DNA of 64,000 nucleotides from assembly GCA_008704415.1 (NCBI GenBank), contig VXIS01000222.1, positions 17,667-81,666 on the forward strand, in the 5' to 3' direction. A program made the position numbers and the translations under genes. Under the pieces are notes generated by a model. That model ran no database searches. It had not been told where the DNA came from and saw nothing but the letters and a program-made list of their open reading frames with translations. The stretch is from Sphaerosporella brunnea (taxonomy: Eukaryota > Ascomycota > Pezizomycetes > Pezizales > Pyronemataceae). Below, one piece after another: positions 1,771 to 62,398 of the stretch (the first letter of the stretch is position 1; the number at the start of each line of letters is the position of its first letter).

Positions 1771-4700
1771 TCAGTTTCGTCGTTCAAGCGCACTAGGTTT
1801 CATCTCAAGCCTCAGTTTACATCCAGTAAGCTGCAACGTGTGGGACCGCTGTGGTAGCAACTCACACTCTTCAGAAGAAGCAATCATGCCCCTGTTAGCA
1901 TCCACCTTCGCGGCCCCAGAGCGGTCAAGTTGGAACTTGCCGGCGCATAGACTACTCCAGCCAACTGTAGTTAGTAATCCGCACGTGCACAAGTTAGGTA
2001 ACTGTTAAACAGTGGGTAGCCTCACAATCTATGAGACAATTCATGAGGTCTATGTCAGCAATCCATTCACAACGAACCAAGAATGAATTCAAAACCCACT
2101 CCAGCCGATTTTTTCCCTCGCGCTCGAATCTAACCATCGACTCTGGTTAGATTTTTCATGGTACCGGCTTCTTCTGCATTAAAACTCACTGACTACGTTA
2201 AGCACTCGGGTGTTAGCGTTCTATCCTTTTGTTTCTGTGTTGGAGACGGGGGGCGGGCTTACTTCCTATGTTGCGAATGAGTAACATGGCTACAGTCAAT
2301 GACCCATCAATACATGATGGATGGAAACTGACTCCCTGCAGGCACAAGCGATGAGGACCGAGTTAGTGATCAAAAAAAAACCCGTATGCTACACGAGACC
2401 GGAAACCAACAAGCTGTTGAGTGTTACAAGTCAGCAAATCATCATCTCGCTTCAAGTAGGAACTACATTGGAGCATACTAGCTGTCATAAAAAGACATCG
2501 AATCCACACGTTAGCGCTTCGCAACTCCACAGAACCGGCCCGAAAGGGACCCACGTGCTGTCAAATCACAGTTAGCAACCAAAGGCAAAGGGCTGTCCGG
2601 GAACATACGTGCTGTTAAATGAGATCATCGAGCTCCCATTAGATGACGATCATCACTGCGAAATTCTAAAACGGCACTCACTCGCTATAAAATTCAGCCA
2701 TCTACAAACACTTTCAGGCAGTCAACAATCAACCTACCAGCTGTCCGATCGAGAAATCGCGCAGGAGTTAGCCAGCCGCTCCACCCGCCCGCCGCTCGGT
2801 CAACAGAAACTCACGGGCTGTCGCATCAGAGCCATCGTGCCCATGTCAGCCATCTCACCTCACCTCACCGCACCTTGTGGGACGGTCGAGAAGAAACTCA
2901 CGTGCTGTCGCATCCAGCCATCGGGTTCGCGTCAGTCGTCCGCCATTTCTGTGTAGGAACGGTCGAGAAGAAACTCACAGGCTGTCACATCCAGCCATCG
3001 GGCTCGTGTCAGTCATCCGCCGCCGCAGGGTAGGAACGGTCGAGAAGAAACTCACTAGCTGTCACATCCAGCCATCGGGCTCGTGTCAGTCGTCCGCCAC
3101 GGCAGTGTAGGAACGGTCGAGAAGAAACTCACTAGCTGTCACATCCAGCCATTGGGCTCGTGTCAGTCATCCGCCATCTCAGTGTAGGAACGGTCGAGAA
3201 GAAACTCACTCGCTGTCACATCCAGCCATCGGGCTCGTGTCAGTCGTCCGCCGCCTGAGTGTAGGAACGGTCGAGAAGAAACTCACATGCTGTCACATCC
3301 AGCCATCGGGCTCGTGTCAGTCATCCGCCGCCGCAGTGTAGGAACGGTCGAGAAGAAACTCACTAGCTGTCACATCCAGCCATCGGGCTCGTGTCAGTCG
3401 TCCGCCACGGCAGTGTAGGAACGGTCGAGAAGAAACTCACTCGCTGTCACATCCAGCCATCGGGCTCGTGTCAGTCATCCGCCGCCGCAGTGTAGGAACG
3501 GTCGAGAAGAAACTCACTAGCTGTCACATCCAGCCATCGGGCTCGTGTCAGTCGTCCGCCACGGCAGTGTAGGAACGGTCGAGAAGAAACTCACTAGCTG
3601 TCACATCCAGCCATCGGGCTCGTGTCAGTCATCCGCCATCTCAGTGTAGGAACGGTCGAGAAGAAACTCACTCGCTGTCACATCCAGCCATCGGGCTCGT
3701 GTCAGTCGTCCGCCGCCTGAGTGTAGGAACGGTCGAGAAGAAACTCACATGCTGTCACATCCAGCCATCGGGCTCGTGTCAGTCATCCGCCGCCGCAGAG
3801 TAGGAACGGTCGAGAAGAAACTCACCCGCTGTCACATCCAGCCATCGGGCTCGTGTCAGTCATCCGCCATCTCAGTGTAGGAACGGTCGAGAAGAAACTC
3901 ACAAGCTGCCACATCCAGCCATCGGGTTCGTGTCAGTCATCCGCCGCCGCAGTGTAGGAACGGTCGAGAAGAAACTCACCGGCTGTCCCATCCAGCCATC
4001 GGGCTCGTGTCAGTCGTCCGCCAACCCAGTGTTGAAACGCTCGAGAGTGTAGTAGGAACGGTCGAGAAGAAACTCACTCGCTATCAGATTAAGCCATAGG
4101 GCCCTGTTTAGCCATTTTCCTTATAATAGTCAAGAAGAAACTTACTTGCCGGAGTGCTGACTAGGAGCCATCGGATTCAGGTTAGCCAGCAGCCCAGCGC
4201 AGAAACGGTCGCAAGGAAACTCACATGCTATAGGATGGAATGATTCCGCCAGCGTTAGTTATTGTCCACAATCCCTGTGCACGAACAGTGCTGGATTCTA
4301 AGGACCTCACCGCCTCTCAATCATACTTAGAGTGAGCAGCGACGTGAAATTTTAGCTGATGACCTCTGCGGTTCCTAGCACGGCGACCACCGGGGAATAA
4401 ACGTACTGCTTTTTGCTATTGTCACCCGAGTTTCCCGTTATGGGTCTGTTCTTCCAGTTTTGGCATAGGCATGGAAAAGCTTACAAGCTGTCAAACGTTA
4501 GCGTTTCTCCAGCCCGGCGGAACGGAAATGCAATGGAACTCACCGACTGTGATGCAATGTTGGTCAACGAAGCTGAAGCGGACAACAAATCGCCGAATAG
4601 GAAAGTGTGAAACTCACCGGCTACCAGATTCCCAGGCGCAGGTTAGCAATCTCTTTTTTCACACGTAATAGAGCGGCAGACACTCACTCCCTAACAGCCG

Positions 4701-7700
4701 ATGTTCCCAGGTCTATTTCAGTGATCGATACAACACAGCACTGACCAACAGAAACTCACTCACTTTGATCTATCGTCAGCGACCTGTTTGTCTAAAGGTA
4801 CGTACCGAACACAGGAAAGTATACATGCTGATCGAGCCATCATGAAATTAACTTGGGTTAGTGATCCACAATTTGCAGGTAACGTGGCGTTAATTAGGGT
4901 ATCATGCGGTGCAGGGAGTAACTCACGGGCTATAAAAGCATTGAGACAAGTATGTCAGCCCTTAAGCCCAAAAGCACCCCGAGAATGGCGCAGGCACTTA
5001 CACACTGTCACATCCAATTATTAGTATCGATCAAAAGTTGCAATCCATTCTCATTGCAAGGTGCAAGGTGATACTCACCGGCTAATAGATTCAGCCATAA
5101 AACTTGTGTCAGCTCATGTTGATTTCTGTTTTGTTTTTCTTTTCTCAGGGTTTGAAGGTCTAATGAGAGAAACCTACTCACTGTATGATCATAACGGGAT
5201 ACAGGTCAGCAAGCATGCACAAAGAATTCCAGAAAAACTTACGGGCTAACAGTCAAATGCGTGACGTCGCCGTTAGTAATGATCAGCGCTTCGAGTGAGA
5301 ATCAGCTCACTCACTAAGATATCCAAGAGTCAGGGATCCATTCCACAAGGTCAGACGGCGAAGCAGAAACTTACTTGCTGTTGGGTACCAGTCCAAAAAT
5401 TTGGCCTGGGTTAGTGAAAAAAAACTTCCCACGGGGCGAAACGGTCAGGAAGCGCACCAGCTACCAGACCACTGGTTAGCAAGGGATCCGAAACCGAACG
5501 TCTCCTGATGGATATCCTTACGCGCTATTGGATGAAAACATTCGGTGCTGGTTAGCGAACCGTCCTCGCCATAGGGCTGGTAATGGGCAAACTCACAAGC
5601 TATCAAATCGAGGTATCAGGATTTGGTTAGCAATGACTCTTGACGGAGAAAGTTCGCTCCTAGAGAGGCGTACCCGCTGCATTATCCAGGGAAAGATGCA
5701 CAGTCAGCTATTCAACCCAACCATGTAGGCAGGCATGACGTCCGGAGAGCCTCACCAACTGTTTATGGCGCAGCCATCGGTCCCAGTTTAGCCATAGCCA
5801 TCCAGTAACTCAATGCAAGACCAGGAACGGTGCACAAAAAACTCACAGACTGCGAACCATTAGTCACCCACCAGGGCCACCTCAGTATATACAAGAAGGG
5901 TAGGGAAAAAACTCACAAGCTGCCACATCCAGCCATCGGGCTCGTGTCAGTCATCCGCCATCTCAGTGTAGGAACGGTCGAGAAGAAACTCACTAGCTGT
6001 CACATCCAGCCATCGGGCTCGTGTCAGTCGTCTGCCATCTCAGTGTAGGAACGGTCGAGAAGAAACTCACTCGCTGTCACATCCAGCCATCGGGCTCGTG
6101 TCAGTCGTCTGCCATCTCAGTGTAGGAACGGTCGAGAAGAAACTCACCGGCTGTCACATCCAGCCATCGGGCTCGTGTCAGTCATCCGCCGCCGCAGTGT
6201 AGGAACGGTCGAGAAGAAACTCACCGGCTGTCCCATCCAGCCATCGGGCTCGTGTCAGTCGTCTGCCATCTCAGTGTAGGAACGGTCGAGAAGAAACTCA
6301 CATGCTGTCACTGTAACGCGGCTCTGTCTACCAGAGAGGCGTGGAATTGAACCCGTGACTTTGGGAAAATGACTTGCAAAATCCTAAACAATAGAATTTT
6401 AAGGGCTATTCTGTCGGGTGGACACTAATGGTTCTTGTTGCTGAAGATAAAGGGGTTCTCTCGGCGGAAGCAATCCTACTTATAGTAGAACGCCGCTCCA
6501 GAGACTACCGTCTCCCTGAGTAATACTCAGCCTTTACTCCTTGCTGGCTTTCCGACAGTCTCTACGACTGCGGGCGTCAGGCGCGCACAGAGATCGCCCC
6601 ACCTTCCTATGACTCACTCTTTGATTCCAAATCATGAGTCATAGACATGGGTCGCACCCGGATACCCCGCTCCGTAAGCGTTGTATTCTCGTGTTGCAGG
6701 AAGATGCTCAGCCCTATTGGCTCCATCTCCCGATCTTCTGCGTCGCATGCCCTACGCAACAACCACACTTACTATGGAGGTTCTAGGCCGAGTGATTCTT
6801 CCCTTTTTCGGCTCTACGCCTTCCGGTTGATCACTCCTGACCCCTCCGATCGTCAGGCTAGTTCCTGGAACAGGCAGGTCAACGAAGATATCTCGGAAGA
6901 GCTCTAACAATAGCCTATACTATTGTTATCTCCGAACCGGATGCTCCTCCCAGGTAGCGTCCCACCTGAGGCACCCGATCTCCGAGTTCTTCCATAGCGT
7001 CACTCAAGCTAGCTACTATGATCCGGAGCCACCCGGCTATCACGTGCCCTCGAGGCGATCACTATGCAGACTCTATTCTATTCCCCTAGCTGACTACTTA
7101 GAGCACATGTCACGTGACCATACCCGTGACATTACTCCCCTCCTAACTAATCTCGTCTCGAGATACTAACTTTCAATTTTCAAGTGTAAGGAATCTAACC
7201 AAGGAAATCCTTCATTTTATTCTACTATCCCTCACCTGTCGGGAATATCTCTCATGGAACTCCTTGAGCATACGGCTGACAGTTTCGTCGCCTTCTAAGT
7301 GCTCCCATGGTTCCCACGTGGCTTCCTCTGGAGGATAGCCTTTCCAGAACACCAAGTACTCGACCCTCTTCTTCTGCCGGTTGAGCCTGCTTTTGGCGAT
7401 CTTGTCGACCACCCAGTATTTCTCTCCATCTATCTCTTCGGGAGGAGGTAGACTTTGGTGTCTTCCAGGAAGCTTTGACTCCCTGTATGGCTCCACCAAG
7501 GACACATGATAGACTGGATGCATCTCCATAGCTGGAGGCAACCGGACCTTCACCGCTCGTTTCCCTATCAACTTTATGATTGGGAACGGCCCGATCTTCT
7601 TGTGATCAAGCTTCTTTGAGGGCCTCTTTGTCCGTATGTTGCGAGCGTCTATCATCACCTTATCTCCCACTTTGAACGAAGGCTGGCTTTGCGCTTTCGC

Positions 7701-10700
7701 GTCGTGCCACTTTGCCATCCGTGTCTGTGCTTGATAGATGTTTTCTTTCAGGAACTCCAAGATTCCCTTCCAGCGTGTGAGCAACAGCTCACTTGCTGGG
7801 TTGGACCATTCCTGCCCTTCGGCTGGCTTGATCCACTGTGTTTCTGGCTGGAACATATAGTTCGCCTGAAACGGAGACATCTTGGTAGTCTCGGAGACTG
7901 CCGTATTATAGGCAAATTCTGCCATCGGCAACAGGTCTACCCAGTCGTCCTGTTGGAAGGAACAGTAGTGTCTGACGTACTGTTCCAACACGGAGTTGAT
8001 TCGCTCAGTCTGTCCATCGGTCTGTGGATGGAAAGCTGTGGACATAGACAACTTGACGTCCAAATGTTCCATCAACTCCTTCCAGAAGTGCGACGTGAAC
8101 TTCGCATCTCTATCAGACACGATCTCTGAGGGTAGGCCATGGAGCCTCCAAATCTCCTTTGCGAAGAGTTTTGCTAACTCTTGTACTGGGGTCTCTTCAT
8201 TCGTCTTCAATGGAATGAAGTGCGCCATCTTGGTGAGACGGTCTACTATTACCCACACCTGGGTGTAGCCGTCAGACTCTGGCAATGCCACTATAAAGTC
8301 CATCGAGATAGACTTCCATGGACGGTACGGAATCTCTAAGGGCTGCAACAGCCCATACTTCTTATGCCTGCTGGTTTTATCTCTCTGACAAGTATCGCAG
8401 CTTCTGACATAGTCTCGTACGTCCTCGTCCATCTTAGACCAGAAGAAGTTCTGCTTCATTCTTTCTGCGGTCTTGAACTGTCCAAAGTGGCCTGCTGCCT
8501 TTGAGTCGTGATTCTCTTGCAAGATCCGTAGCTTGAGCTGTGGGTCATTAGGGATTACCCATCTATTCTCGTAGAACAGAAGTCCCTCTTTAACCTCAAA
8601 CTCCTCTGCTACATTTGGATCCTGCCTCTCTACTGCTTCTCTTGTCTTCACCCAATCTTGGTCTGCGGCTGCTGCTCTACGCAACGCCTCCAAGAAGGGC
8701 TCTGGCAACTGGACCTCTCTGGATCCAGCAAGCTTGGCAGAGCTCATTACGAGTTGTCCAGGCTTGAAGAAGCTCATCTCGGGAGCTTTACTCCCCTCCT
8801 CTGGGGCGTAGTCCCAACGCCTCGATAACACATCAGCCTTCGTGTTCTTATCTCCAGGCCGATATATCACCTTGAAGTTAAACTCTGCTAGGTGTTCTGC
8901 CCAACGGGCTTGACGTCTTGTCAACACCTTTGTCGACGCAAAGTACTCCAAGTTCTTGTGATCCGTATACACCGTGATTTCGCCAGCCACTGATTTCAAC
9001 ATATGTTCCCATTCTTGAAATGCTACCACAATGGCTAACATTTCCTTGTCATGAATGTCATAGTTGATCTCGGCCGGCTTGAACTTTCGCGAGTGAAAGG
9101 CTACTGGGTGTAATCGGACATCATCCTGTATCTGGGAGAGGATAGCGGCAAGCGCAAAGTCGCTAGCATCCGTCTCCACAATTGTCTGTCTTTCAGGATG
9201 AAAGTGGACTAGGATAGGAGCCTCAATGAATTTTCTCTTGAGCTCCTCAAACGCCTGCTGACACTTGGAGGACCACTCGAAGGCTACACCCTTCTTGGTC
9301 AACTCCGTCAGCGGCGCAACTATCTTGGAGAATCCACTAATGAATCTCCTGTAGAAGTTCGCGAATCCTATAAAGGCTTGCACGTCCTTCACCTTCTGAG
9401 GTGCCACCCACTCTTGGATGGTCTTAACCTTACTTGGGGACATTGAAATCCCCTCTGAGGATATCTGGTATCCTAGGTATTCTACTTCCGAGACGTGGAA
9501 ACAACTCTTCTTTATTGAAGCACACAACCTTGTCTGCTTCAACTTCTCTAGAACTTTCTTCACAAGCTCTATATGTCTCTCTTCTGTCTCGGAGTAGATG
9601 AGTATGTCATCGATATAGACGACTACTCCTTCATCTAACAGTTCTCGAAGAACTGTGTTGATCATAGCCTGAAAGGTAGCGGGCGCATTGCACAGACCAA
9701 ACGGCATGACCAGGTACTCAAACAGCCCATAATCGCGTCCTAAACGCTGTCTTCCACTCGTCTCCCTCCGCGATTCGAATGAGATTGTACCCATTCTTTA
9801 GGTCCAGCTTAGTGAATATCTTAGCCTTTCCCAATCGCTCACGAAGTTCTGACATTAGTGGCAGCGGGGTGCGGTCCTTGACTGTCACCTTGTTTAACCC
9901 TCGATAGTCGACGCACAAGCGAAGACTTCCATCAGGCTTAGGGACGAAGATGATAGGGGCCGCAGCTGCTGACTTGGACTGTCGGATCTTGCCTGAGGCA
10001 AGCTCCTTGCGGAGGTATTCTCTTAACACCTCCAACTCTTTTTCTGACAGAGGGTATATGGGCCCATAGGGCGGTACTGCCCCTTCTATCAGTCTAATCT
10101 CATGGTCGTATGAGGTGTGGTCAGGAAGACGATTGATTTCTTCTTCACTGAACACTGAAGCCCATTCGCGGTACTGCTCTGGCAGTCTCTCCGCGATGTC
10201 ACCTCCTTCCTCATCGTGCCAATCTATACTATTCACAACCCAAGGCTTGCCCTCTTGAAGTAACTTGACAAAGTTCTTCACAGCTTGCCTTACTGACACT
10301 GGGAGGCAATGCTGACGGCAGTACTCACTGCGCCACTGCATCGTCCCGGTCTGCCAGTCTATGTCCGGGTTGTGCTGTTCTAACCAGGAGATGGGTATAT
10401 AGCCCGAGACCTCTGTCTCCAGCTGACCTATCTCCCAAGTCATTTCTTCTTGGTGCTCCCCAATCCTCATACATAAGAGGTTGGTATAGCGGGCACCAGT
10501 CTCTGCTAATGGGGTCCCATCTGCCCCGGTCACTTGGATGGGAGTGTCTCTTTTTATCCATGGCAACTTATGCTCGAACACAAAGTCTTTATTCAAGATA
10601 GGCCCAGAACACCCTGAGTCAATCAAGAACCTTCCTTTGCAACTACGAGACTTGCCATACTCAGTGGTCCACCAAATGTCTGCCACCAGGAACATTCTCT

Positions 10701-13700
10701 TCCCGTGTCTTGGAGGATCCACTCTAGGCTTCTTAGGCATTTGCCTTTCTGCCACTACCGTTTTTCTCTTAAGGGGGTTCATGGTTCAGTACGTCTTAGG
10801 CCTTTCGACACCTAAGCAAGCGCAACGTCTTGCTGAACTACGTCTCTGTGGGATACTGGTCTGTCTTTTTACCTGTATGCACTCTGCTGACTCTTATATG
10901 CCAGCATATTTCGGGTACTAAACCCATCCTCAGAGAGCCTTTTTCCTTAAGAACGACTATTTAATTTCAACTATGAAATTCCTAACTACAAAGCCCAGAT
11001 ATCCAGATCTGAGTCTTCTCCTTCGGGGATCTCCAGGATCCTACCCGACGCAGCTGTAGGGGCCTGAGGCTGCGTGCTAGCAACCTTAGCCTTCTTCTCA
11101 GACTTCTCGTCTGAGTCCTCAGCCTTTCTCTTCTTTGAGCTAGCCACCTTCTGGGTGACTGGCTCCTTAGTGAAGCATTCGAACCAGGAGTGATTCTTCT
11201 TGCCACACTTCAAGCAGAGCTTTTCCTTAGCCCGCTGGTCAAGGACATCCTTACTGATGCCCTTAAGTTCGACGGTCTTATCCTTCCAGGCGCCGTCTTT
11301 CTTTGGCTTGTCCTTGCTGGACGAAGCCTTGTCTGTGGGTTTGGAAGCCGGGTTGGGCTTTGAACCCTGTCCCTTCTCCTTCCCGTTGCTCTTGCCACCT
11401 TGACTGGTGGACTTCTTGTGGTGCCGTTCCCAATCTTCCAGGACATGGCCCATGTCTCGCAACATGGCCATCTGGGCACTCACATCGTTGGGCTTAGGCT
11501 GAACCTTCGCCCAATCCTTGGACAGTTCTTCGGACAGCCCCTCCTTGAGCTTATCCTTGACCATGTCCCCTACGTAACCAGTGATCCACATCAATCTGGT
11601 TACCTCATCCAGGAAGGCATCAATGCCGGCTGTCTGCCGCAACTTCTGCCATTCCTGTACTGCCTTGTCACGATTGACACGGCCGCCGAACGAGGCCCTA
11701 AGGCTAGCCTCAAATCTCTCCCAGGTGGCGAAGCTGGGGTCATTGATCCAGAATCCTCTGACACGGATCGACTCCTTTCGATCTATGTTGATTTTGTAGG
11801 TGGCGAACCAGTCGTACGCCGCCTCTTCCATCAACTAATCCTGCCAAGAGGATCTTGGTGAGGTCGTCTGGGTAAGACCTCGGGTTGAGCCTGAAGTATG
11901 AGTCCAGGCTCGATAGGAACCGGTTAAGGTCTCGTTCCTTGCCCTTGAAGGGCTTTGGTTCGGGCACCTTAATCGACCTTGGCTGTTGCTCAGCCTCTAT
12001 GTGGGGCCTTGGATTGGCCCCAAGCTCCTTGATGATTTGGCGACGGTGCCACTTCTTCCAGCGTACTGGGCTGTCGCTGGAGATCTGGTTCGGGGTCGGA
12101 ATCGTCGTCATCATCGTCATCGGAATCTCCTGGTGGAGGTGGTCCTCCACTGATTCCTCCTCTTCTACCTCCAGAGCCACCAGCGCCTCCTGCACCAGCC
12201 GGCTCTGGACTCTCAATCCTCCTAACGGGGCTTTCCATACCCCTCGACTGACTATCTCCTCCTTCCACCTCTCCTGATATTCCCAATCCTTGTGTTCCAC
12301 CTGGCCGGACAGCAGCTCCTCTCATCATGTACTTGTCGAGGAGTCGGGGGTGCTGAGGGTATTGGCGTCTGGTGGATTACCGGTCGCTTGCTTCGCTTAG
12401 CAACTCCCTTTTTCGCTTTCGGCTTTGTAAGCCAATCGGGGTCCGTCAGCGGAGTTGTCCGCGATGGAACCTTTGCGGACAATCCTGAGGGGTACGTGCG
12501 AGGCTTGCGACGATTGCGGTGGGATGGGGGGAACGGAGGCAGGCTTCTCGGTACTTCGGCCTGCGTCCAGTGACTCTTGGCCGCTTCTTCCTCTAAGGAG
12601 ACCGCTGAGGTCCCAGAGGGCTGACTGGGGTTGGCTCCCAGTCCATCTGATCATCCTGCAAGGTCGTCCTTGCTCAGCTAGACCGACTGAGCTCTTGGTA
12701 CATGAGCTGGACATGTTGCTGCATCTCAGCAATTGCCATCTCATGAAGCCTACGAGTAGCCTCATTGCTGCTCGACTATCCGTGCGAGCACAGTGTATGC
12801 TCCACGGACCTGATCCTTGACTAACTCAAAGACCAACTCCTGGAATCTGCTGAAACAGCTGATCCATATTTGCCGCGGAGTCGATAGACTCCGGGACATC
12901 TTTTGCCTGCAACCCCTAAGATGAGGGAAGCGACTTCTCGAGGGTTTCTAACTATGAGGCGACGATTGTCGGCCTCGGGATACTGCTGGGGGTTCCACTC
13001 GAGGAGCGGAACCTGGGGGGTCGGCTCGATGGTGATAGATGCCATTATTGAGGATGCCAGGCGACAGGAATTCTTAAAATTCTGATGTAACGCGGCTCTG
13101 TCTACCAGAGAGGCGTGGAATTGAACCCGTGACTTTGGGAAACTGACTTGCAAAATCCTAAACAATAGAATTTTAAGGGCTATTCTGTCGGGTGGACACT
13201 AATGGTTCTTGTTGCTGAAGATAAAGGGGTTCTCTCGGCGGAAGCAATCCTACTTATAGTAGGAACGCCGCTCCAGAGACTACCGTCTCCCTGAGTAATA
13301 CTCAGCCTTCACTCCTTGCTGGCTTTCCGACAGTCTCTACGACTGTGGGCGTCAAGGCGCGCACAGAGATCGCCCCACCTTCCTATGACTCACTCTTTGA
13401 TTTCAAATCATGAGTCATAGATATGGGTCGCACCCGGAATACCCCACTTCTACCAGGGTCGTATTCTCGTGTCGCAGGTAGATGCTCAGCCCCATTGGCT
13501 CCATCTCCCGATCTTCTGCGTCGCATGCCTTACGCGACAACCATACTTACTATGGAGGTTCTAGGCCGAGTGATTCTTCCCTTTTTCGGCTCAACGCCTT
13601 CCGGTTGATCACTCCTGACCCCTCCGATCGTCATGCTAGTTCCCGGAACAGGTAGGTCAACGAAGATATCTCGGAAGAGCTCTAACAATAGCCTATACTA

Positions 13701-16263
13701 TTGTCATCTCCGAATCGGGTTCTCTTCTCAGATAGCGTCCTATCTGAGGCACCCGATCTCCGAGTTCTTCCACAGCGTCACTCAAGCTAGCTACTATGAT
13801 CCGGAGCCACCCGGCTATCACGTGCTCTTGAAGCGATCACTATGCAGACTCTATTCTATTCCCCTAGCTGACTACTTAGAGCACATGTCACGTGACCATA
13901 CCCGTGACAGTCACATCCAGCCATCGGGCTCGTGTCAGTCGTCCGCCACGGCAGTGTAGGAACGGTCGAGAAGAAACTCACTAGCTGTCACATCCAGCCA
14001 TCGGGCTCGTGTCAGTCGTCTGCCATCTCAGTGTAGGAACGGTCGAGAAGAAACTCACTCGCTGTCACATCCAGCCATCGGGCTCGTGTCAGTCATCCGC
14101 CGCCGCAGTGTAGGAACGGTCGAGAAGAAACTCACCGGCTGTCACATCCAGCCATCGGGCTCGTGTCAGTCATCCGCCGCCGCAGTGTAGGAACGGTCGA
14201 GAAGAAACTCACCGGCTGTCCCATCCAGCCATCAGGCTCGTGTCAGTCGTCTACCATCTCAGTGTAGGAACGGTCGAGAAGAAACTCACATGCTGTCACA
14301 TCCAGCCATCGGGCTCGTGTCAGTCGTCCGCCACGGCAGTGTAGGAACGGTCGAGAAGAAACTCACAAGCTGCCACATCCAGCCATCGGGTTCGTGTCAG
14401 TCATCCGCCGCCGCAGTGTAGGAACGGTCGAGAAGAAACTCACTCGCTGTCACATCCAGCCATCGGGCTCGTGTCAGTCGTCCGCCACGGCAGTGTAGGA
14501 ACGGTCGAGAAGAAACTCACAAGCTGCCACATCCAGCCATCGGGTTCGTGTCAGTCATCCGCCGCCGCAGTGTAGGAACGGTCGAGAAGAAACTCACATG
14601 CTGTCACATCCAGCCATCGGGCTCGTGTCAGTCGTCCGCCACGGCAGTGTAGGAACGGTCGAGAAGAAACTCACTAGCTGTCACATCCAGCCATCGGGCT
14701 CGTGTCAGTCGTCTGCCATCTCAGTGTAGGAACGGTCGAGAAGAAACTCACAGGCTGTCACATCCAGCCATCGGGCTCGTGTCAGTCGTCCGCCACGGCA
14801 GTGTAGGAACGGTCGAGAAGAAACTCACCGGCTGTCACATCCAGCCCGATGATGGGGTTAGGTTAGCGACAGTCATGAACGCGTTTTAAGTCAGAGCGAA
14901 GTAGAAACCCACAAACTATAGGTTAAGTCCTCACACCCATGTAAGCAAAGGCCGACTCGAACCACCTTCACTGCGGTCAAATTTTCGGAAAACATACAGC
15001 CTATGTAAGATCCCTCAAATTAAACAAAATGTTCCATGAGCGCCAAGGTAGCTTTCGTGACTCACAATTTGGGATATCGATTGGCTGGTTTGATACTGGA
15101 TTTGACCTGGAAAACTGTCAGCGCCGGCGATTGGGCCACTTGAACTGTTGGGCTTTGTTGCAAAAGCGTCGTGGAGGCCATCTGTGCAGTGATGTCGTGG
15201 TCGGTGCTGGTAGGACCGGTTCCAGAGCATTGTGGGTTTGTCAACCAGTCCCTAAAGTGTTGTGCCAAACGTTCCGTGACCTGAAATCCGGTAGGCTCAG
15301 AGGCGATCCAGTCATTTTCCAAAGCCTGTTGGGCTTTCCCACGTTTAGTTGCATCCGGCTGTATAAGGCTTTCGATGAAGGCAATTCCAGGATTACTGAG
15401 ACCCTGGGAGAGAAGTAGCTCGGGCTTAGGATAGCCGTGGTTTTGGTAGGCGTACCCGATCACCTGCAGCTGGTTCTCGAATGGTACACTTCCAGTAACC
15501 ATTCTATACAGGATGCATCCTAGCGCCCAAAGATCGACAGCATTCGTATAGCCCGTCGGCTCACCGAACATAGCTTCTGGAGCCATGTAATGAGGGGTAC
15601 CGGTTTGCGTTTTGGCAATCGTACTCTTATCGCTGGAAAGACGTTTCGATATTCCGAAGTCACCGATTTTGATGTGAAGTTGGGGTGGATTGTCGAGCAG
15701 GATGGGAAATATATTCTAGGTTGAGGATCATGGATCAGCTATGTCTGCGTGCTAGGAAATCGAGAGTCCAAAGACTAACCGCTGGCTTCAGGTCACGATG
15801 GAGGATATCGTGTCCATGCATGAACGTCAACCCCTTCAACAACTGCCTGGCAACCAGTTTTGTATCCCCTTCACTCCATTTGACCTTGATGTGATTTTCC
15901 AAGTCCCCGAACTCCATATACTCCATGGCAATATAGAGGTATGAATCCTGATCATCTTCATACCATCCGAGAAACTGCACAAACAACTCATGCTAGATGT
16001 CATGCTTTAGCGATGAACCTCCTTTCGGCATTTCAGTCTACTACCTTTAGCACGTTTGTGAAAATGGCTATTTCGGTTTGAAAGCGCTGGCGACGGAAGT
16101 TCGGATCGTGTTTTAAGATCCTTTTGACGGCACACAGTTCGGGTCTGAGCATGCCGGGACGTCGGGCTTTTCCGGAGAATACGACAGCGAAACCGCCGCG
16201 TCCAATCTCCTTTTCCAATTCGGGCTTGTAGCGTAGCTTGTTGGTATGGTAGCTGTCGTCCAT
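1771..16263 (-). CDS. Ser/Thr protein kinase with a hypervariable C-terminal tail encoded by about 74 microexons (77 exons in total)
   Basis: Exons 1-3 (16045-16263, 15780-15992, 15066-15715) encode a complete kinase domain. Exon 3 then splices at GTGAGT (15065) into an array of tiny exons. Inferred low coordinates of the upstream block: 14998, 14913, 14829, 14752, 14675, 14598, 14521, 14444, 14367, 14290, 14213, 14136, 14059, 13982. The gypsy intron follows. Downstream: 6302, 6225, 6148, 6071, 5994, 5917, 5847, 5756, 5674, 5597, 5522, 5458, 5375, 5311, 5243, 5178, 5079, 5002, 4927, 4825, 4760, 4688, 4618, 4544, 4485, 4407 (9 nt), 4311 (15), 4225, 4146 (15), 4078, 3980, 3903, 3826, 3749, 3672, 3595, 3518, 3441, 3364, 3287, 3210, 3133, 3056, 2979, 2902, 2815, 2738, 2682, 2609, 2555, 2479, 2411, 2333, 2263, 2190, 2100 (30), 2026, 1956 (9), 1866, 1771 (22 nt with TGA). 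All others are 3 nt. Coding length is 219+213+650+304 = 1386 nt, or 461 aa, with no internal stop. Every array intron starts GT and ends AG, with a CTRAC-like branch site in most. The last few exons (donors GTCAGT, GTAGTC) are least certain. The tail's function is unknown; recognition or regulation is inference. Confidence 0.8.
2870..4077 (-). repeat. homogenised 77-bp repeat block 2 (about 15 units)
   Basis: Near-identical tandem units occur at exactly 77-bp spacing, for example exons at 2979, 3056, 3133, 3210, 3287 and so on to 3826. Units differ at the exon dinucleotide and in a small intronic cluster just upstream of the branch site (variants CACGGCAGT, GCCGCAGT, ATCTCAGT, GCCTGAGT on the plus strand). 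An extra 18-bp insertion lies near 4025-4055. The similarity implies recent amplification or gene conversion. Confidence 0.9.
5890..6311 (-). repeat. homogenised 77-bp repeat block 1, 3' part
   Basis: Five to six 77-bp units carry exons at 5917, 5994, 6071, 6148, 6225 and 6302. The block continues on the other side of the gypsy insertion (from 13910). The last bases GTCAC (6307-6311) are one copy of the target-site duplication. Confidence 0.9.
6312..7131 (-). repeat. 3' LTR of the gypsy element
   Basis: 820 bp, left copy in plus coordinates. Its outer end abuts the duplication GTCAC. It is the partner of 13086-13909 and differs by scattered substitutions, mostly transitions, and a few 1-bp indels. 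Confidence 0.95.
7135..7144 (-). promoter_or_regulatory. polypurine tract
   Basis: The minus strand reads AGGAGGGGAG just before the 3' LTR start (7131), the expected plus-strand primer position. Confidence 0.7.
7212..10782 (-). pseudogene. pol: gypsy pol polyprotein, broken by one frameshift
   Basis: Part one (10782-9718, 354 aa) carries the aspartic protease (LIDSGCSG) and the start of reverse transcriptase (FVPKPDGSLRLCVDYRGLN). Part two (from about 9794 to 7212) continues reverse transcriptase with the YIDDILIYS active site. It then has RNase H (ETDASDFALAA, TDHKNLEYF) and integrase (HHCC zinc region ending CDTCQRDK, then DFIVALP, SDRDAKF and HPQTDGQTERINS with the DDE triad). It ends in a chromodomain (EYLVFWKGYPPEEATWEPWE). 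The two parts are in different frames. A single extra base near 9734 turns TRYGLFEY into TRLWAV-stop. It could be a real mutation or an assembly error in a T run. The chromodomain places it in the chromovirus branch. Confidence 0.93.
10986..13045 (-). pseudogene. gag: gypsy gag, broken in several frames
   Basis: The likely start is the ATG at 13045 (MASITIEPTPQVPLLEW). The frame is interrupted near 12915 and 12830 and again between 12400 and 11800. The C-terminal part (11834-10986) is open, with a charged Lys-rich linker and one CCHC zinc knuckle (CLKCGKKNHSWFEC) that binds genomic RNA. An Asp-rich, Gly-rich stretch lies near 12100-12200. Pol starts about 200 bp downstream of the gag stop. 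Confidence 0.85.
13073..13083 (-). promoter_or_regulatory. putative self-priming primer-binding site
   Basis: Two bases inside the 5' LTR edge, the minus strand reads AGAATTTTAAG. This is the exact complement of CTTAAAATTCT in the same LTR (13167-13177). I see no tRNA-like TGG start. The 11-nt match, 92 nt from LTR edge to the far end of its partner, resembles the Tf1/sushi self-priming design, where the mRNA 5' end primes minus-strand DNA. Confidence 0.65.
13086..13909 (-). repeat. 5' LTR of the gypsy element
   Basis: 824 bp, TG..CA ends. It contains CTTAAAATTCT (minus strand, 13177 to 13167), the 11-nt partner of the sequence just outside the LTR. A 5-bp-stem hairpin CTCTG/CAGAG lies at 13096-13110, near the LTR/primer junction. 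Confidence 0.95.
13910..14860 (-). repeat. homogenised 77-bp repeat block 1, 5' part
   Basis: Twelve 77-bp units carry exons at 13982 to 14829. The block begins with the second GTCAC copy (13910-13914). Towards the kinase exons the array degenerates into single-copy introns with exons at 14913 (donor GTGGGT) and 14998 (donor GTATGT). Confidence 0.9.
15066..16263 (-). CDS. kinase-domain part (exons 1-3) of the microexon gene
   Basis: About 360 residues form a full CAMK/Chk-like Ser/Thr kinase domain. The glycine loop GRGGFAVV is at residues 21-28 and the ATP-anchoring lysine is in CAVKR (K47). The catalytic HRDLKP is at 138-143, DFG at 163-165 and the APE motif (PHYMAPE) ends at 191. The C-lobe contains DLWALGCILYRMVTG. 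Introns are 15993-16044 (GTAG..CTAG, 52 nt, phase 0) and 15716-15779 (GTTAGT..CTAG, 64 nt, phase 0). The ATG at 16263 precedes MDDSYH and is the best start; the upstream open frame is repetitive DNA. The frame seems to end KL-stop at 15062, but that TGA is part of the GTGAGT donor of the first array intron. All catalytic residues are present, so the kinase is probably active. Confidence 0.85.
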
Positions 16264-20197: not shown

Positions 20198-21896
20198 ATG
20201 GAGCCCGTTTCCTTTGCGTTTGGTACAATTGGGGTTGCTGACGTCTGCCTCACGTATGTGTCGCCGAAGGCTTGAACTGCTCGTGTAAAGTGTTAACCGC
20301 AAGGCAGTTACGGCCGAGAGCTCGTCGCTAAGTACCAGATCTACAAAGAGGCGGACACTGCGATCGGGGAGGCGATTCTCCGTGCCCAGCATCATTGGAC
20401 CATGCTCGAAATGGAGCTGAAGATCCTGCGCAACCTGTCGCACGTTCTGGAAGAGAGCCACCAGCTTCACCTCGCGACGTTGTTTCAAACGCTCCAAGTC
20501 AAGCTCCAGAAAGCGCTCGTGACGATCGACAGCGTTATCGGTGCAAAAGAGGAGGACCCAAAGAGGGTCTCGTTCAGATCGCTGCTGAGGAAAAGGGGCG
20601 ATGTCAAGGCGATGCGGCTTGCGACGGGGGTTAAGAAGTCCCTCGATGCAATGCTTCTCGAGTTGGCCGAGTGGCATCGCATGCTCGACCCGTCGTGGTT
20701 TCTCCTTGCGCTCGTCCAGAACCCGGCGGTCGACAGCGAATTGACGGATCAGATTGCCAGCACGAACAAATCGGTATCGACGCTGAAATCCCTCCGGAGC
20801 GCCATCAACCGGAGCGCTCAACCTGGTGCAAAAAAAACCTCGATGTTTATCCCGGAGGCCAGTGTGCTGGAAAGAAAGCCAATCCTGTACTTTTCCGGAG
20901 AAACAGGACGGGAATACCGAACCGGAAAGACCGTTCTGGTGGACAACGTCATCCCCCATCCCGCAGCGCACGTGAAGGTACTGGATAAGAATGTCCGAGA
21001 CCTTGCCCGCATCCTCTCCGTGGTGGAGCCCTTGAAATTTGGCATCCTTGCATGCACTGGGGCTATCCGGGTCCGCGATTCGGCCCGGAATATTCTGCGG
21101 TTCCAACTCGTCTTCCGGGTTCCAGACAACTTCCATACCCCTCGAAGCCTTCGCGAACTCTTGGTCACCGGAGTTTCGGCGCCGCTCGAGGAGCGTTTCC
21201 GGCTCGCCGCGCAGCTGGCCCGATCAGTGCTGTTCATCCACACAGCCGATTTCGTTCACAAGAATGTTCGCCCAGAAACGATAATCGTCCTCAAGAACGA
21301 TAGCTCGGTCATCGGGATGCCGTTTCTGATGGGGTTTGAGAACTTCCGACCGGTGGAAGGAAATACATTCCTTGCCGGCGATTCGGAGTGGCAGAAAGAT
21401 CTATACCGGCACCCGGCCCGACAGGGGACATGTCTAACCGAATCGTACAACATGCAGCACGACATCTACAGCCTCGGGGTGTGCCTCCTGGAGCTCGGAT
21501 TATGGGAGTCGTTTGTCCTTCCTAACTCGATAACAGCAGGACGCTTTGACCCGGCTCCAAATCTCAACATTTCTAAACACCTCAGGCTCGGAAGACCGTG
21601 GGATAAAGCGAACAAAATCAAGGAGGAACTCGTCTATATGGCAAGAACACGGCTCCCAAGCAAGATGGGCTCAAGGTACACACAGATCGTGCTCATGTGT
21701 TTGGGTTGTCTGGACGCTGGGGACAACGGTTTTGGACATGAAAGCGAGTTCTTGGACAACGATGGAATCTTGGTGGGGGTGCGGTACATAGAGAAAGTAA
21801 GTGATTATGTAGCTCCTATTACTGTGGCAGTTCGACGACTGATACTAACTATGCGATATCCAGATCCTTGAGAAGGTGGATGAAATTGTGGTGTGA
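20198..21896 (+). CDS. HeLo-domain pseudokinase (fungal MLKL-like architecture), 525 aa
   Basis: Exon 1 (20198-20253) encodes MEPVSFAFGTIGVADVCL. Intron 1 is 20254-20307 (GTATGT..GCAG, 54 nt). Exon 2 (20308-21796) resumes at YGRELVAKYQIYKEADTAIG. Intron 2 is 21797-21863 (GTAAGT, perfect TACTAAC branch, CAG). Exon 3 (21864-21896) ends ILEKVDEIVV. The N-terminal helical region resembles the HeLo family, the membrane-active domain of HET-S and, by homology, MLKL. The C-terminal half is kinase-like but the catalytic motifs are degenerate. HRD is replaced in FVHKNVRPETI and DFG in MGFENFRP, while DIYSLGVCLLELGLWE is kept. It is therefore a pseudokinase, probably acting in incompatibility-type cell death signalling (inference from family). 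An open frame on the other strand (21136-20189) is a shadow. Confidence 0.85.
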
Positions 21897-22599: not shown

Positions 22600-24115
22600 T
22601 CTGCAGACTGGATTATGGCCGTGCATAGTTGACAACCTGTCCAGTGGTCAGGAACCGTTAGTTTTGAGAAAAATAGGCCCTTAGAGCGCACGCAGACATC
22701 CAGAACAGCCAATACACTTTCTCCGCACACCCGCTGCTGCAGAGATGCTCGACTGTGTGCATATATGCTCTCTTTCAAGCGATGGTTGCTCAGGGCCAGC
22801 GGTTGTCTGATACCGTTGAAATTCCAGAGAAAAATCCATCTCTGGAGGGCCCGGGGACCTTTAGAACAGCCAATACACGTCGTCAACATCCCGCCTGCTG
22901 CAGGGAGGTTTGGTTTCATGCATATAAGCTGTATCAGCAGTGGTTTTTGACCGGGGCGCGTGATTGTTTGATACCGTTGAAAATTTGAGAATAATTGACC
23001 TCCGCAGCGCCCGGGGACCCCTAGAACCCCCCAAAACAAGTCGTCCAGACACGGCCTGCTGCAGGGACGTTCTTCTACAGTCACCTAAGCTCTGTTTAAA
23101 CCGACGATTGCTCAGGGACAGCGGTTGTGCCCTGTCGTTGTGAGTAGCGGACGCCTTTTGGTAATCACTGAGTATGGCTCGATCTTGATAGGACAATGTC
23201 CCACCAAGATTAGTAAGTATCGTCTGTCTACTACCTGCTGTAGGGAGGCTCAACAGCATGCATATAAGCTGTGTTTAAAGCGACGATTGCTCACGGCCAG
23301 CGGTTGTTCCCAATCGTGGAGATTTTGAGAAAAATCAGCCTCCTGGAACCCCGGGGCCGCCAGAACAGCCAATAAACACCGTCGGCCCGCTGCCTGTTAC
23401 AGGGAGGCCCTACTGTAGGTATATAAGCTCTGTTTGAACGGACGCTTGCTTAGGTCCAGTGGTTGTTGCCTGTCGCTGAGATTAGCGGACGCATTTTGGG
23501 AAGCACTCATTATCACTCGATCTTGGTAGGACAATGTCCCACCAAGATCAGTAAGCGTCGTCTGCCCACCACCCGCTGCAGAGACGCTCGGCAGTGCTCA
23601 TAGAAGCTCTCTGGGGAGCCGCTGTCTCCTGGGACCAGCGTGTATTCCGTAGGGTTGAAATTTGCGAAGGCGTTTTCATGCTCACTGATTATCACTCGAT
23701 CTTGGTAGGACAATGTCCCACCAAGATTAGTAAGCGTCGTCTGCCCACCACCCGCTGCAGAGACGCTCGGCAGTGCTCATAGAAGCTCTCTGGGGAGCCG
23801 CTGTCTCCTGGGACCAGCGTGTATTCCGTAGGGTTGAAATTTGCGAAGGCGTTTTCATGCTCACTGATTATCACTCGATCTTGGTAGGACAATGTCCCAC
23901 CAAGATTAGTAAGCGTCGTCTGCCCACCACCCGCTGCAGAGACGCTCGGCAGTGCTCATAGAAGCTCTCTGGGGAGCCGCTGTCTCCTGGGACCAGCGTG
24001 TATTCCGTAGGGTTGAAATTTGCGAAGGCGTTTTCATGCTCACTGATTATCACTCGATCTTGCTAGCACAATGTCCCACCAAGATTAGTCAGAGGCGTCT
24101 TCCCACTGCCCCGTG
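22600..24115. repeat. satellite-like tandem repeat, about 175-179-bp unit
   Basis: Three successive units at 23513-24050 are spaced exactly 179 bp and nearly identical. More diverged units extend left to about 22600 and right to about 24115. Each recent unit holds a 29-bp near-perfect palindrome, ATCTTGGTAGGACA, one base, then TGTCCCACCAAGAT. The unit is nucleosome-sized. Short open frames that repeat with the unit are not genes. Inverted copies lie at 29640-30010. Confidence 0.85.
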
Positions 24116-24466
24116 CAGTGACGCTCGACCGTGCTCATAGAAGTTCTCAGGGCAGCTGCCTTTGCACAGGGCCGCACGGCCGGTACGTTCAAGTCTCGGG
24201 TGCCCGGGACCTGAAACTCAGTCTCGGGCGAGTACTCAGGCCTACAGCACACCTGAGTGGGGGCCCGGGCGGGGAGGGGAAGGCCGATGGAGCGGGGGCA
24301 ATGGAGCGGCCATTGGAGCGGTGATCCATGCGGTGTTCAATTTGAATGCCCTCGGCTGGCCATTGGCTAATTAAGAATGTTCATAGTGCTGTCTCCCAGT
24401 CCTTTGCACCGGTTGATGGGCCGCCGGCGATCGGTAACGTATCGGAGCTAGAAGTTGAACACGTAC

Positions 24467-49115: not shown

Positions 49116-50587
49116 TTATTTCAACCCCGCTGCCGTCGTCGCCGCCACCCCCACAGAGTCTGCCCCCGCCTCTGGCTCTCGCTGTGAAACGCGCCAGTGA
49201 CTCTTGTACACCCGTTCCTTATACTGCTTGTCGCCAAACACAGCTCCTTCCCTGTAAACCTGGTTGATGCGCTGGGTGCATCTCCAATACTTGACGGATT
49301 CCAGCGCTTTTGGAACAACCTGGCGTAGCACTGTGTCTGCAAGGGCCGATTTGAGAAGCTCAACTCTCTTCGGTCTTGACACCCGAGGCCATGTTTGCTG
49401 TCCAGTTTGTGGAGGTCGTTCTAGCAAAGCTTCCAACTCAGGGTCGGAGTCTGCTCCATTGATGTAGGTCTCTAGGGATTTATGTATGGCCTCCTGGTCA
49501 CCGTCGTCCTCTTCTGCCTCGTCATCCTTTTCTGCCTCGTTGTCTTCTGCCTCGTCGTCCTCTCCTTTGTTCTTCACCTCACCCAGCAATACAGTCTCAG
49601 CTTCAGCCTCAGCCATTTTGTTTTGTTTTTATCATATTGCATTTGGCCGCTGGCGGCCATAGCATGTAAATACAGATTCATCGCCACCCCTAGGCACTAA
49701 AAGCCTACTGTGGGGCACGCTCCTCCAAAGGAAAAGGAAGCAAGAAAAGCGCGGCCGATAGAAACACACAAAGGAAATTCGTGATGTAACAACAGATAGA
49801 AAAGAGAGCACACCGTGCAAACTCAGTTGGCCGCCTTTGGCCATAGTCCTACATGCGTGCTGTTCAGGAAGTCCATCACTGCTCCTGTACAGCGGCCATC
49901 CGCCAGCAAATCTTTCACTGACGTGTTCGTTTTCCTCCTCTTTTTCCCTTTCTCCCGCGTGGCCTCTGCCACCGCCTTCCATAGCGTCCGATGCTCTACA
50001 CGCCATTTGTGGCAGATCTTGAAGAGGTGGTCACGCGTCTGCGTGGGCCTCTTAGGACAGTACCAGCACTTATCGTCCAGACACCGTCCCGTCCTATGGA
50101 GGTACGGTGCTGTGGGCGCCTTCTGCAACCTCAACTGGAAGAAGTGTGCTGCTAGCGACTTTCTAGTCCGAAAGGCGGCCTTGTTGGTACCGTTCGGGCG
50201 CCTGTAGTAGCTCTTCGGAACGCAGTGTTCAGCAAGCCAGGCTTCACGGTCTTGGTGCTTGGCCCGGGTAACCTCTCGGGCGATGTGAGTGAGCGAGGTG
50301 GTGTCGAGGACGTTGTCAGGTGCGGCTGGAGATCTGCTTTCCGCGGCTGCTTTTGCGCACTTATCTGCAGCCTCGTTTCCGTATACCCCTTCATGCCCGG
50401 GAACCCAGTGGTACGTGGTGGACCAGCCGATCTTGAGCAGCTGGCGTTCTGCCTGGGCAATGTTCCACTGGCCAGGACCCGGTGCAGCGCTTCGTAGACG
50501 TTTCTCAGCCTCAGCCAGACGCCTGCGCTTGGCACCAATAGCTCTAGCTTCTCGTGATCGGATGAGTCTTTTACTCGGTCTCCCCAT
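49116..50587 (-). pseudogene. repeat-family ORF (189 aa before interruption), split by a LINE insertion
   Basis: The start MGRPSKRLIRSREARAIGAK leads into KRRRLAEAE. After removal of the insert 49616-50504 and one target copy the frame continues AETVLLGEVKNKG, an acidic stretch, VVPKALESVKYW, AVFGDKQYKERVYKSHWRV, to the stop at 49116. The basic N-terminus and acidic centre recur in copies at 51260-54050 and 61203-62310. The function is unknown; it is probably a TE-borne protein. As it stands, the 5' part runs into LINE sequence and forms a chimeric frame. Confidence 0.75.
49616..50504 (-). mobile_element. 5'-truncated LINE insertion, 889 bp
   Basis: A perfect 13-bp target duplication TCAGCCTCAGCCA flanks it (49603-49615 and 50505-50517). 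The 3' end carries an A-rich tail (minus strand ATAAAAACAAAACAAAA). It encodes the end of LINE ORF2: RNase H (WVPGHEGVYGNEAADKCAKA) followed by a CX2C-type tail (CLDDKCWYCPKRPTQTRDHL, then FKICH). It is truncated at the RNase H domain, as usual for target-primed reverse transcription. Confidence 0.9.
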
Positions 50588-51259
50588 TGCTGTTGATGGT
50601 CGCGGCTGTATGTATCTGCAAGAGTTTGGGGCCAGGGACCGGAAGTTGCAAGAGTCGGGGACAGCGAACAGTGTCATGACGAAAGCGCCCCAATGCTGCA
50701 GTCTGTGCTCACTGTTCAAAGGCATAGCGGATGGCACCTGGCCATAGCACCTGGCCATAGCACCTGGCCATAGCACAGTCGTAATCCTTCTGGGTGGTCC
50801 AAGCTTTTCAAGTCCATCGCCTCACTATTTAAATGGGCTCGCGAGATTGCGCAACCGGTGGAAGCTCGCATCTTATCTTTATAGAGCGCACTTTGTTTAG
50901 TGGACCCAAGACCGGCTTCCTCAGAGTTCTCACTCACATACCACTCCATATATAATCGTCAACATCTCCACCAAGCGGAGCCTGCCGACGGGTCGGCTTG
51001 AGGCCGCTTGCACCATATATGGTGCAACGCCTTATAAACATGTACCTTCGTTAAGTGTGAAGTTACCCGGAGTTTAGTGGCGAGTGACACGTTATGCTGC
51101 GGTGGCGCGGTCTCTCTCAACGTTTATTTGATAATAACGTTTATTTTTTATTTTGTCAACAAGTACATACCCGCCGGTGGCTTTTATACATGCGTTCCTT
51201 AAACGCCTCGGTTCCATAATGTTCTCCGAGTGTGTAAGCCTACTTATAGCGCAGGCAGC
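50588..51259. other. flank between repeat-family copies
   Basis: A triplicated 13-bp CACCTGGCCATAG motif lies near 50738-50777. A short palindrome ACCATATATGGT at about 51012 starts a stretch also found at 61203 (GGTGCAACGCC). Confidence 0.5.
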
Positions 51260-61202: not shown

Positions 61203-62310
61203 TATGGTGCAACGCCTGATAAACCTGTACCTTGGTTAAGTGTGAAGCTACCCTGAATTCAGGAGTGAGTGACAACCTGTGAGGCAAAAGGTTAGATGGT
61301 GGTCAAAGGGTACGAAGTGGTGGGGACCAAAGTTGAGGGCGAACTCTAAGGCCAGGTGGACCGTGAACCCAATAGTCAATGTATTTATTGCCCATCTGCG
61401 CCTGGCTCTCACTGTGAAACCCGCCGTTGACTGGTATAGACCCGTGCTCTGTACTCTTCGTCTCCAAAGGTGGCGCCTTCCCTATATGCCTGGATAATGC
61501 GCTGAGCGCGTCGCTAGTACTTGAAAATAAGCGGTGGCTTCACAGATTCCAGAGCTTCTGGGACCGCTTCCTTAAGACCGGATGGCTATTAGCTATTGTT
61601 GCATTACCGTTCTCCTCCTCCTCCTCCTCCTCCTCTTCCTCTTTCTGATCTTCCTCCAAAACCTCCCGTCTAGCTCCCGGAATTTGGTATGGTTCAGGCT
61701 CGGCATCGCCGAGAGAACCGCCGCCGCCGAGAGAATTATCATCGTTGAGACGCCTGCGCTTCCGAGCCGCGCTGATGGCGCCAGCTCGTCGTAGATGTAG
61801 CGTTCTTTTGTTTGCTCTGCCCATTGCTGTTGGTTCCTCCTGCTGTGGTGTGGGATACGAGTGCAGCTGGCTCAGACATTGTGGATTTGGTGCTGTCATG
61901 ACGAAAGAGGACTCGGGCTTGAGCTCTCTGTGCTGACATTATAACCTTCAAGGTATTAGCAGTGGCTATAGCGGGGCCATACTTGTTTTTGTTGGTCCAA
62001 ACTCTTGACAATGCATAGTGGCGATTTTTGAAAGGCAGCACGCAAGTGCGGGAACAGTGAGAGTGGAGCACATTGGATTGTAGAGCGCATCTGCTTCAGG
62101 TGGTTAATGTGTGTTTTGCTCTGAGTTCGGACGCCGGGACGACGGCTTTCGTTGTGGCTTTCGTTGTGGTCGTCCATCTCCACCAACCGGGAATGTGCGA
62201 CGCCGAGGTAGGTAGCCGCCTGCACTATATTTTTTCGATCTCTTATCCTACCGGAAGGCGAAGAAATACAGATATCCTCAGCTAGCAACAATGGCTCTGG
62301 AGATTCTCTC
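61203..62310 (-). mobile_element. repeat-family copy 3 (no nested insertions)
   Basis: The minus-strand ORF starts MGRANKRTLHLRRAGAISAA near 61825 and runs through RKRRRLNDDN and a poly-Glu tract at 61613-61640. It goes out of frame at 61560 before KYWRRAQRIIQAYREGATFG. It is the intact-layout relative of copies at 49116-50587 and 51260-54050 and shows the empty sites of the nested elements. GGTGCAACGCCTGATAAACC at 61206 resembles 51017 in the same direction, so it may be a terminal repeat. Confidence 0.7.
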
Positions 62311-62398
62311 AGTGCCTGCAACGTCAGCTGAGGTAGAACATATATTTATCAGCGCGAAGCCCACTCTCGCTGAGCGTAGGGCGCGGCTTGATTGTTAG
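62291..62398 (+). pseudogene. hAT transposase dimerisation-domain fragment
   Basis: MALEILSVPATSAEVEHIFI then SAKPTLAERRARLD matches the hAT C-terminal signature. A TAG at 62396 interrupts before IVGALKCLRPW. Confidence 0.8.

Follow-up and report, generated by a model that had tools for sequence, protein, structure and literature searches.

Putative single-codon exons in tandem array behind a protein kinase gene of the cup fungus Sphaerosporella brunnea

Serial arrays of minute exons have been described for the NACHT-ankyrin (nank) gene family of the truffle Tuber melanosporum, in which dozens of 3-bp mini-exons and alternative splicing were reported (Iotti et al. 2012, Fungal Biol 116:261, as cited in PMC9815663, PMC4986451, PMC3689799, and PMC10197012). 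As these citing papers present it, the truffle report refutes a statement in the preliminary description of the present locus, according to which no gene with dozens of consecutive 3-nt exons had been described. A second point of comparison is provided by the HNWD fungal NLRs of Podospora, whose tandem repeats closely resemble one another except at a few hypervariable positions and are reshuffled through unequal crossing-over (PMC9815663). Within open-licence PMC text, no report was found of single-codon exon arrays in kinases or outside Tuber.

The stretch of DNA analyzed here, referred to as the window, comprises positions 17667–81666 (64,000 nucleotides) of contig VXIS01000222.1 (C138) from Sphaerosporella brunnea, an ectomycorrhizal cup fungus of the Pezizales. 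Its minus strand contains a Ser/Thr kinase gene that starts at 16263 and runs straight into an array of tiny exons. Spliced translation placed kinase exon 1 at 16045–16263 (ATG at 16263), exon 2 at 15780–15974 (HRDLKPA at its 3′ end), and exon 3 at 15066–15715, whose final bases AAA TT adjoin the chain's first donor in phase 2. The junction of exons 2 and 3 (DLKPA-N) is also found in the cDNA-like relatives P0002, P0006, and P0007. P0001, the NCBI model of this kinase, displays a full Pkinase domain (PF00069; Pfam 5.2e-56, profile 3–263 of 263), with a first intron boundary six residues off from that of the present exon model; HRDLKP, DFG, and APE, which we take to be the kinase motifs, are visible in the sequence. 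Pkinase and PK_Tyr_Ser-Thr were the only domains identified by a Pfam search of P0001, which found no NACHT domain and no ankyrin repeats; since these are absent, the gene is not a nank-type member by domain content. Comparison with solved structures highlighted ordinary kinases only in the best 60 of 337 rows.

Exon chains were traced by dynamic programming with exon length free between 1 and 60 nt, and with GT and AG obligatory. The free search picked 3 nt for 62 of the 72 exons of the window array (14/14 before a retrotransposon that interrupts the array, 48/58 after it). During curation, six free-search exons were manually swapped for six of 3 nt and one of 15 nt, a 3-nt exon adjoining the retrotransposon was added, and the last acceptor was hand-chosen. 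One AAG acceptor, one GAG acceptor, and one GTTTAT donor are weak spots, all at hand-chosen places. From the kinase donor at 15065, the curated chain leads to a terminal exon by way of 72 introns; of the 71 internal exons in between, 69 measure 3 nt, and the other two are 15 and 30 nt long.

All parts of the array lie on the minus strand. Part A (15065–13982) comprises 14 introns, with the same number of 3-nt exons, and part B (6304–2026) contains 3-nt exons together with the 15- and 30-nt exons; both are present in the free and curated chains. Part B opens directly after the retrotransposon with a homogeneous 77-bp block (6304–5917), delimited by Tandem Repeats Finder and the curated chain. 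This is followed by diverged, older units (5916–4078), placed by the curated chain, alignment, and shuffles, and encoding the stretch that aligns best with relative P0006 (see below). A further homogeneous 77-bp block with near-identical introns and hypervariable exons (3979–2902; 4046–2882 in Tandem Repeats Finder) emerges from the curated chain and the variation counts, and a second diverged stretch (2901–2026) from the curated chain and shuffles. The acceptor of the 15-nt exon (4160–4146) was hand-chosen for frame, the free search having taken 11 nt here, while the 30-nt exon (2129–2100) is common to the free and curated chains. The last 3-nt exon is 2028–2026, and the coding part of the terminal exon spans 1964–1952, its hand-chosen acceptor being the same as that of the free search. 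In kinase phase, the curated chain predicts a tail of 88 residues ending at an in-frame TAG (1954–1952). The array would encode the predicted C-terminal end of the protein, with a stop in the terminal exon directly after the chain.

Elsewhere in the window, 20402–21868 (plus strand) and 59050–60681 (minus strand) may represent two further kinase-like genes, with matches below the curated cut-off to DUF7580 and Pkinase in one and to Pkinase in the other; the chain search found no 3-nt exons at either kinase-like part. An RNase H match slightly under the curated cut-off at 49826–50776 (minus strand) is perhaps a retroelement piece, and 3.6 tandem copies of a 179-bp unit, with 96% matches, occupy 23504–24156. 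Scans of the window with Rfam (gathering thresholds) and ARAGORN yielded no matches.

In control stretches, the chain search selected 3 nt for 0 of 119 exons (window other strand and other parts, 0/54, 0/11, 0/30, and 0/20; opposite strand of the array at C35, described below, 0/4). Chain search will string exons in any long sequence, and the other non-array sequence gave 5/169 exons of 3 nt, namely 4/150 in the insert and flanks outside the two array parts of C64 and 1/19 in C68, a pattern match that was discarded as an array on this count. On the plus strand of the window array, 19 of 54 exons were of 13 nt, a repeat artefact.

In the two diverged stretches, 3 nt was chosen for 17/22 (5916–4081) and 10/11 (2901–2029) exons; 300 Markov shuffles per stretch gave at most one exon of 3 nt each. 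The interiors of 40 diverged introns have a mean identity of 0.528, against 0.513 for shuffled sequence. Their splice signals are retained: G occupies position +5 in 38/40, 38/40 end in CAG or TAG, and CTRAC lies near the acceptor in 27/40, compared with a mean of 2.7 and a highest value of 9 in 500 shuffles. Apart from splice signals and 3-nt spacing, then, little has been conserved in the old units. These observations bear out two proposals of the preliminary description, that a minus-strand array of introns with 3-nt exons is real and that its pattern persists in diverged units. The chain of about 74 introns ending at 1771 proposed there also stands as a chain, but its extent was slightly too long (72 introns, last 3-nt exon as given above), and the proposed span 1771–15065 also includes the 7.6-kb LTR retrotransposon.

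Pattern searches and sequence inspection identified at least six arrays in the S. brunnea genome that are built like that of the window, from different units. Besides the window, these are located at C35, C64, C65, C105, C177, and C419; the C419 array is almost a copy of that at C105. Exons of 3 nt were chosen in 37/43 cases for C35, 56/61 for C65, 24/34 for C105, 16/19 for C419, 16/21 for C177, and 10/12 for the first part of C64. Genome-wide pattern matches numbered 151, against 66 for the reversed-pattern control (the places being among the matches listed), 56 against 34, and 45 against 60 for three patterns; from the last, only the C177 cluster led anywhere, and the array count is a minimum. 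A DNA search of the 50.6-Mb genome with the 77-bp unit placed 9 of 12 matches in C138 (75–100%) and 3 of 12, weak, in C65 (72–89%), also a lower bound given that the search skips very common words.

At C35 and at C105, the array is preceded by an open frame of the same orientation carrying both NACHT-type and ankyrin domains, and the C65 array follows neighboring frames with NACHT-type domains in one and ankyrin in the other; Pfam detects NACHT and ankyrin upstream of all three, and ankyrin also in a kinase-ankyrin relative, P0018. Each of the four arrays with a located upstream gene (C138, C65, C35, and C105) lies behind a same-orientation coding exon. The search for an upstream gene came to nothing at C64, where it met an insert and the contig end, and at C177, where it met the contig end. 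Other sequence also interrupts the arrays at C64 (approximately 18 kb, C64:1911–20006) and C105 (approximately 0.5 kb, C105:64095–64570), and mobile elements may therefore often land in such arrays. Downstream of the C105 chain, a long AGG/GAG-rich run (62000–62650, minus strand) would, according to the frame in which it is read, encode a low-complexity end of either basic or acidic character. C419:1–1316 starts inside the near copy of the C105 array, with homogeneous units differing in number and order, and is possibly a second allele or duplicate showing length variation.

Read in kinase phase, the window tail contains no stops; there are three when the exons are taken as codons and none in the third phase. 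For the C35 array, the frame set by its NACHT-ankyrin gene is free of stops, and the other two frames contain two and three. All three frames of the C65 array are stop-free, which makes its frame uninformative. The terminal exons of the C138, C65, and C35 chains contain in-frame stops. P0001 ends at the exon 3 boundary with TTG TGA, read from the unspliced first donor; gene callers would stop at this boundary anyway, as GTGAG read through gives TGA. The NCBI model at C35, P0121, by eye splices into the array and reads through an intron, and so is without the tail. Gene annotation has missed the array in both cases, the public model stopping at the boundary in C138, and skipping into the array and misreading it in C35.

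Predicted proteins of seven relatives of the kinase end at the same boundary, with PKPKL (P0008, P0010, P0015, P0017, and P0022), PKSKL (P0013), or PKPEL (P0019). The intron after DLKPA is retained in all five of these that cover the site (P0008, P0010, P0013, P0015, and P0017), and such sequences are taken as genomic read-throughs that halt at an array boundary. Relative P0006, unlike the genomic paralogs, lacks this intron and for that reason is read as cDNA-like; it is our reading, from the missing intron and short contigs, that P0002, P0006, and P0007 are transcript-derived. P0006 runs 62 residues past LPKPKL. This tail contains two residues of the KQEMW class, compared with 51/262 in the body (Fisher 5.5e-4), and aligns to the predicted S. 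brunnea tail with a score of 59 (shuffles: mean 29.1, sd 5.4, 1/5000 as high). The best-aligned part (CGF...DP..R..I.D.RF.RI) is that coded by the diverged units.

Other relatives were less informative. P0007, likewise without the DLKPA intron, ends ...TTVLL and has no such tail. The kinase-ankyrin protein P0018 has a 44-residue KQEMW-free run, for which the Fisher value of 8e-4 is biased, the run having been chosen after viewing, and KQEMW-free runs of up to 54 residues also occur in other kinases of the relatives list. Neither the P0018 tail nor the P0002 tail aligned significantly with the predicted one (475/5000 and 3964/5000 shuffles as high, respectively), and the composition of the short P0002 tail was likewise not significant (Fisher 0.22). 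A protein search with the P0006 tail matched P0006 alone among 30 candidates. A search with the joined predicted C-termini of C65 and C35 gave 49 matches, among which 23 were inspected and a microexon-type tail was recognized in none; several of the 23 terminate at the exon boundary or run on through the first intron. Ankyrin proteins P0135, P0141, P0145, and P0149, all from relatives, end in KL, the start point of the C65 chain, and P0141 and P0149 belong to Trichophaea hybrida. Such KL endings are hints that arrays may be present in those genomes too.

Variation among near-identical units was compared by column after retaining units at ≥80% of the consensus, which reduced C138 from 33 to 30 (74-nt introns only), C65 from 51 to 43, C64 from 33 to 28, C35 from 36 to 22, C105 from 21 to 12, and C177 from 16 to 13. 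Diversity at codon positions 1, 2, and 3 is 0.74, 0.66, and 0.00 in C138 (intron mean 0.062, max 0.51); 0.69, 0.71, and 0.33 in C65 (intron mean 0.090, max 0.55); and 0.77, 0.69, and 0.45 in C35 (intron mean 0.082, max 0.57). Codon positions 1 and 2 exceed every intron column in these three arrays, and position 3 is less variable. C105 (n = 12) has no codon-3 contrast (0.55, 0.59, and 0.59), so that the pattern is present in three of the four arrays of known frame. Given that C138 and C65 are in phase 2 but C35 in phase 0, the variable places track the codon, not the exon or splice site. For C64 and C177, to which no codon frame was assigned, exon diversities are 0.00, 0.75, and 0.74, and 0.46, 0.60, and 0.68. 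Three-column intron windows as variable as the exon, or more so, number 1/72 in C138, 2/72 in C64, and 4/78 in C177, with none in C65, C35, or C105.

Seven C138 units that share one identical 74-nt intron carry four different exons. Unit pairs with identical introns differ in their exon in 29/42 cases in C138, 2/8 in C65, 1/1 in C64, and 3/5 in C35 (35/56 in total); C105 and C177 have no such pairs. A string of five exons occurs twice in C138, on either side of the retrotransposon, a length reached in 1/1000 shuffles and as would be expected from block duplication. Some of the variation can be put down to recombination between exon and intron, which could mimic part of a diversifying signal. 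Diversifying selection is nonetheless judged the likelier main cause, because the wobble base is constant in C138. Taken together, chain statistics, reading frame, the cDNA-like relative, and codon-position variation give good support to the earlier suggestion that each unit is one intron plus one codon-sized exon.

It is probable, in our judgment, that the array is spliced and translated into a diversifying recognition tail of the kinase, perhaps truncated in this strain. Approximately 72 short introns would be removed, and some 69 single-codon exons joined with the 15- and 30-nt exons to give the 88-residue C-terminal tail in phase 2. Splicing of the window array in S. brunnea is inferred from these sequence features and in all likelihood occurs. 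As each tandem unit consists of an intron and exactly one codon, unequal crossing-over would be frame-safe, and could add, delete, and reshuffle residues one by one with the frame intact. Selection would preserve the splice signals and 3-nt spacing, and favor change of the encoded residue. The gene class and the variation suggest, by analogy with the truffle NACHT-ankyrin codon-microexon tails, that the tail most probably forms a diversifying recognition surface on an immune-type kinase.

Alternatively, the kinase mRNA could end at the TGA overlapping the first donor (a KL stop), or the whole array be removed as one big intron, leaving the array untranslated. P0001 and the seven genomic relatives all end exactly where such a stop would place them, and the cDNA-like P0007 ends near the boundary without a tail; the gene-caller stop at this boundary is, however, inevitable, and the kept 3-nt spacing, the restriction of stops to unused frames, the codon-position variation, and the P0006 tail would all be unexpected. 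This alternative is considered unlikely. Less probable still is a regulatory splicing device, acting through retention, decay, or timing, for which the encoded residues would be irrelevant. While such a device would account for splice signals kept in introns otherwise hardly more alike than shuffled sequence, it does not predict codon positions 1 and 2 as the most variable and 3 as less so in three of four known-frame arrays and in both phases, nor a resemblance between the old part of the tail and the protein of a relative. The homogeneous 77-bp tandem units might also suggest a spread satellite or introner family with splice-like motifs by descent only. We give this very little credence: the unit matched only C138 and, weakly, C65 genome-wide (as a lower bound), diverged units retain signals and spacing and little else, and all four arrays with a located upstream gene follow a coding exon in the same orientation. 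On the grounds given for these alternatives, a plain minisatellite, introner spread, and a single large intron were rejected.

A further alternative, compatible with the translated tail, concerns the state of the allele in the sequenced strain, Sb_GMNB300. The interrupting element is a 7.6-kb Ty3-type LTR retrotransposon on the minus strand (6312–13909), recognized by LTRs, target duplication, and domain matches. Its LTRs (13086–13909 and 6312–7131) are 95% identical over 825 positions, the target duplication is GTGAC (13910–13914 and 6307–6311), and one frame has reverse transcriptase, RNase H, integrase, and chromodomain matches. In one array intron (13981–6305), now 7,677 nt in length, the insertion has parted the AG from its branch site. 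It may block splicing of this intron in the sequenced strain, and if the intron were retained, the tail would be expected to stop after 14 residues. That the allele is now dead or truncated is a serious possibility, if somewhat short of an even chance. The position of the insertion between branch site and acceptor, with its target duplication, and the growth of the intron, whose own branch site now lies far upstream of the acceptor, speak for it. However, the target duplication has re-created the acceptor, and the downstream units keep their signals. The LTRs are already 5% apart as well, perhaps partly through RIP-like C to T change, so any age estimate is loose.

It is interesting to consider the translated-tail reading more widely. 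One-codon-per-intron arrays could be a general device of the Pezizales for hypervariable tails on at least two immune-type gene classes (NACHT-ankyrin and kinase), a proposal we hold to be evenly balanced. The intron would serve as a recombining, homogenized scaffold and the codon as the diversified residue; through unequal crossing-over, tails would be altered residue by residue, and splicing choice would perhaps add variants. If confirmed, this would constitute a system for diversifying receptors, with a minisatellite altering the protein in single-residue steps. With acceptor and donor 3 nt apart, dozens of times in series, it would also be a demanding case for splicing.

The window array shares with the truffle nank genes, as these are described in the citing papers, dozens of serial 3-bp exons (69 curated, 62 free) at a predicted C-terminal end in a Pezizales fungus, and three S. 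brunnea arrays (C65, C35, and C105) likewise follow NACHT-ankyrin genes. Unlike nank, the window gene encodes a kinase and lacks both NACHT and ankyrin. By this analogy, the window array probably works like the truffle system, and an odd truffle observation is extended to a further fungus within the Pezizales and to a gene for a kinase. As in HNWD, again as described in the citing paper, near-identical tandem units have few hypervariable positions; in contrast to the HNWD protein repeats, the unit here would code one residue and the rest is intron. The HNWD repeat is of WD type and tens of residues long. Aphid bicycle genes and schistosome micro-exon genes resemble the window array in having many tiny in-frame exons in fast-evolving genes; their micro-exons, unlike those of the array, are mostly longer than 3 nt and not tandem minisatellite units. 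Introner elements, near-identical introns dispersed in large numbers over many genes, share with the array the many near-identical introns but not the dispersal, the unit search having matched only two places, as a lower bound. New relative to these systems are the array on a kinase gene, as predicted here, and a cDNA-like relative whose tail aligns with the predicted one. Also new, with the truffle system compared through the descriptions in citing papers, is an exon whose codon positions 1 and 2 are hypervariable, whichever the frame, in three of four known-frame arrays. Such variation supplies a sequence test for translated, diversified single-codon exons.
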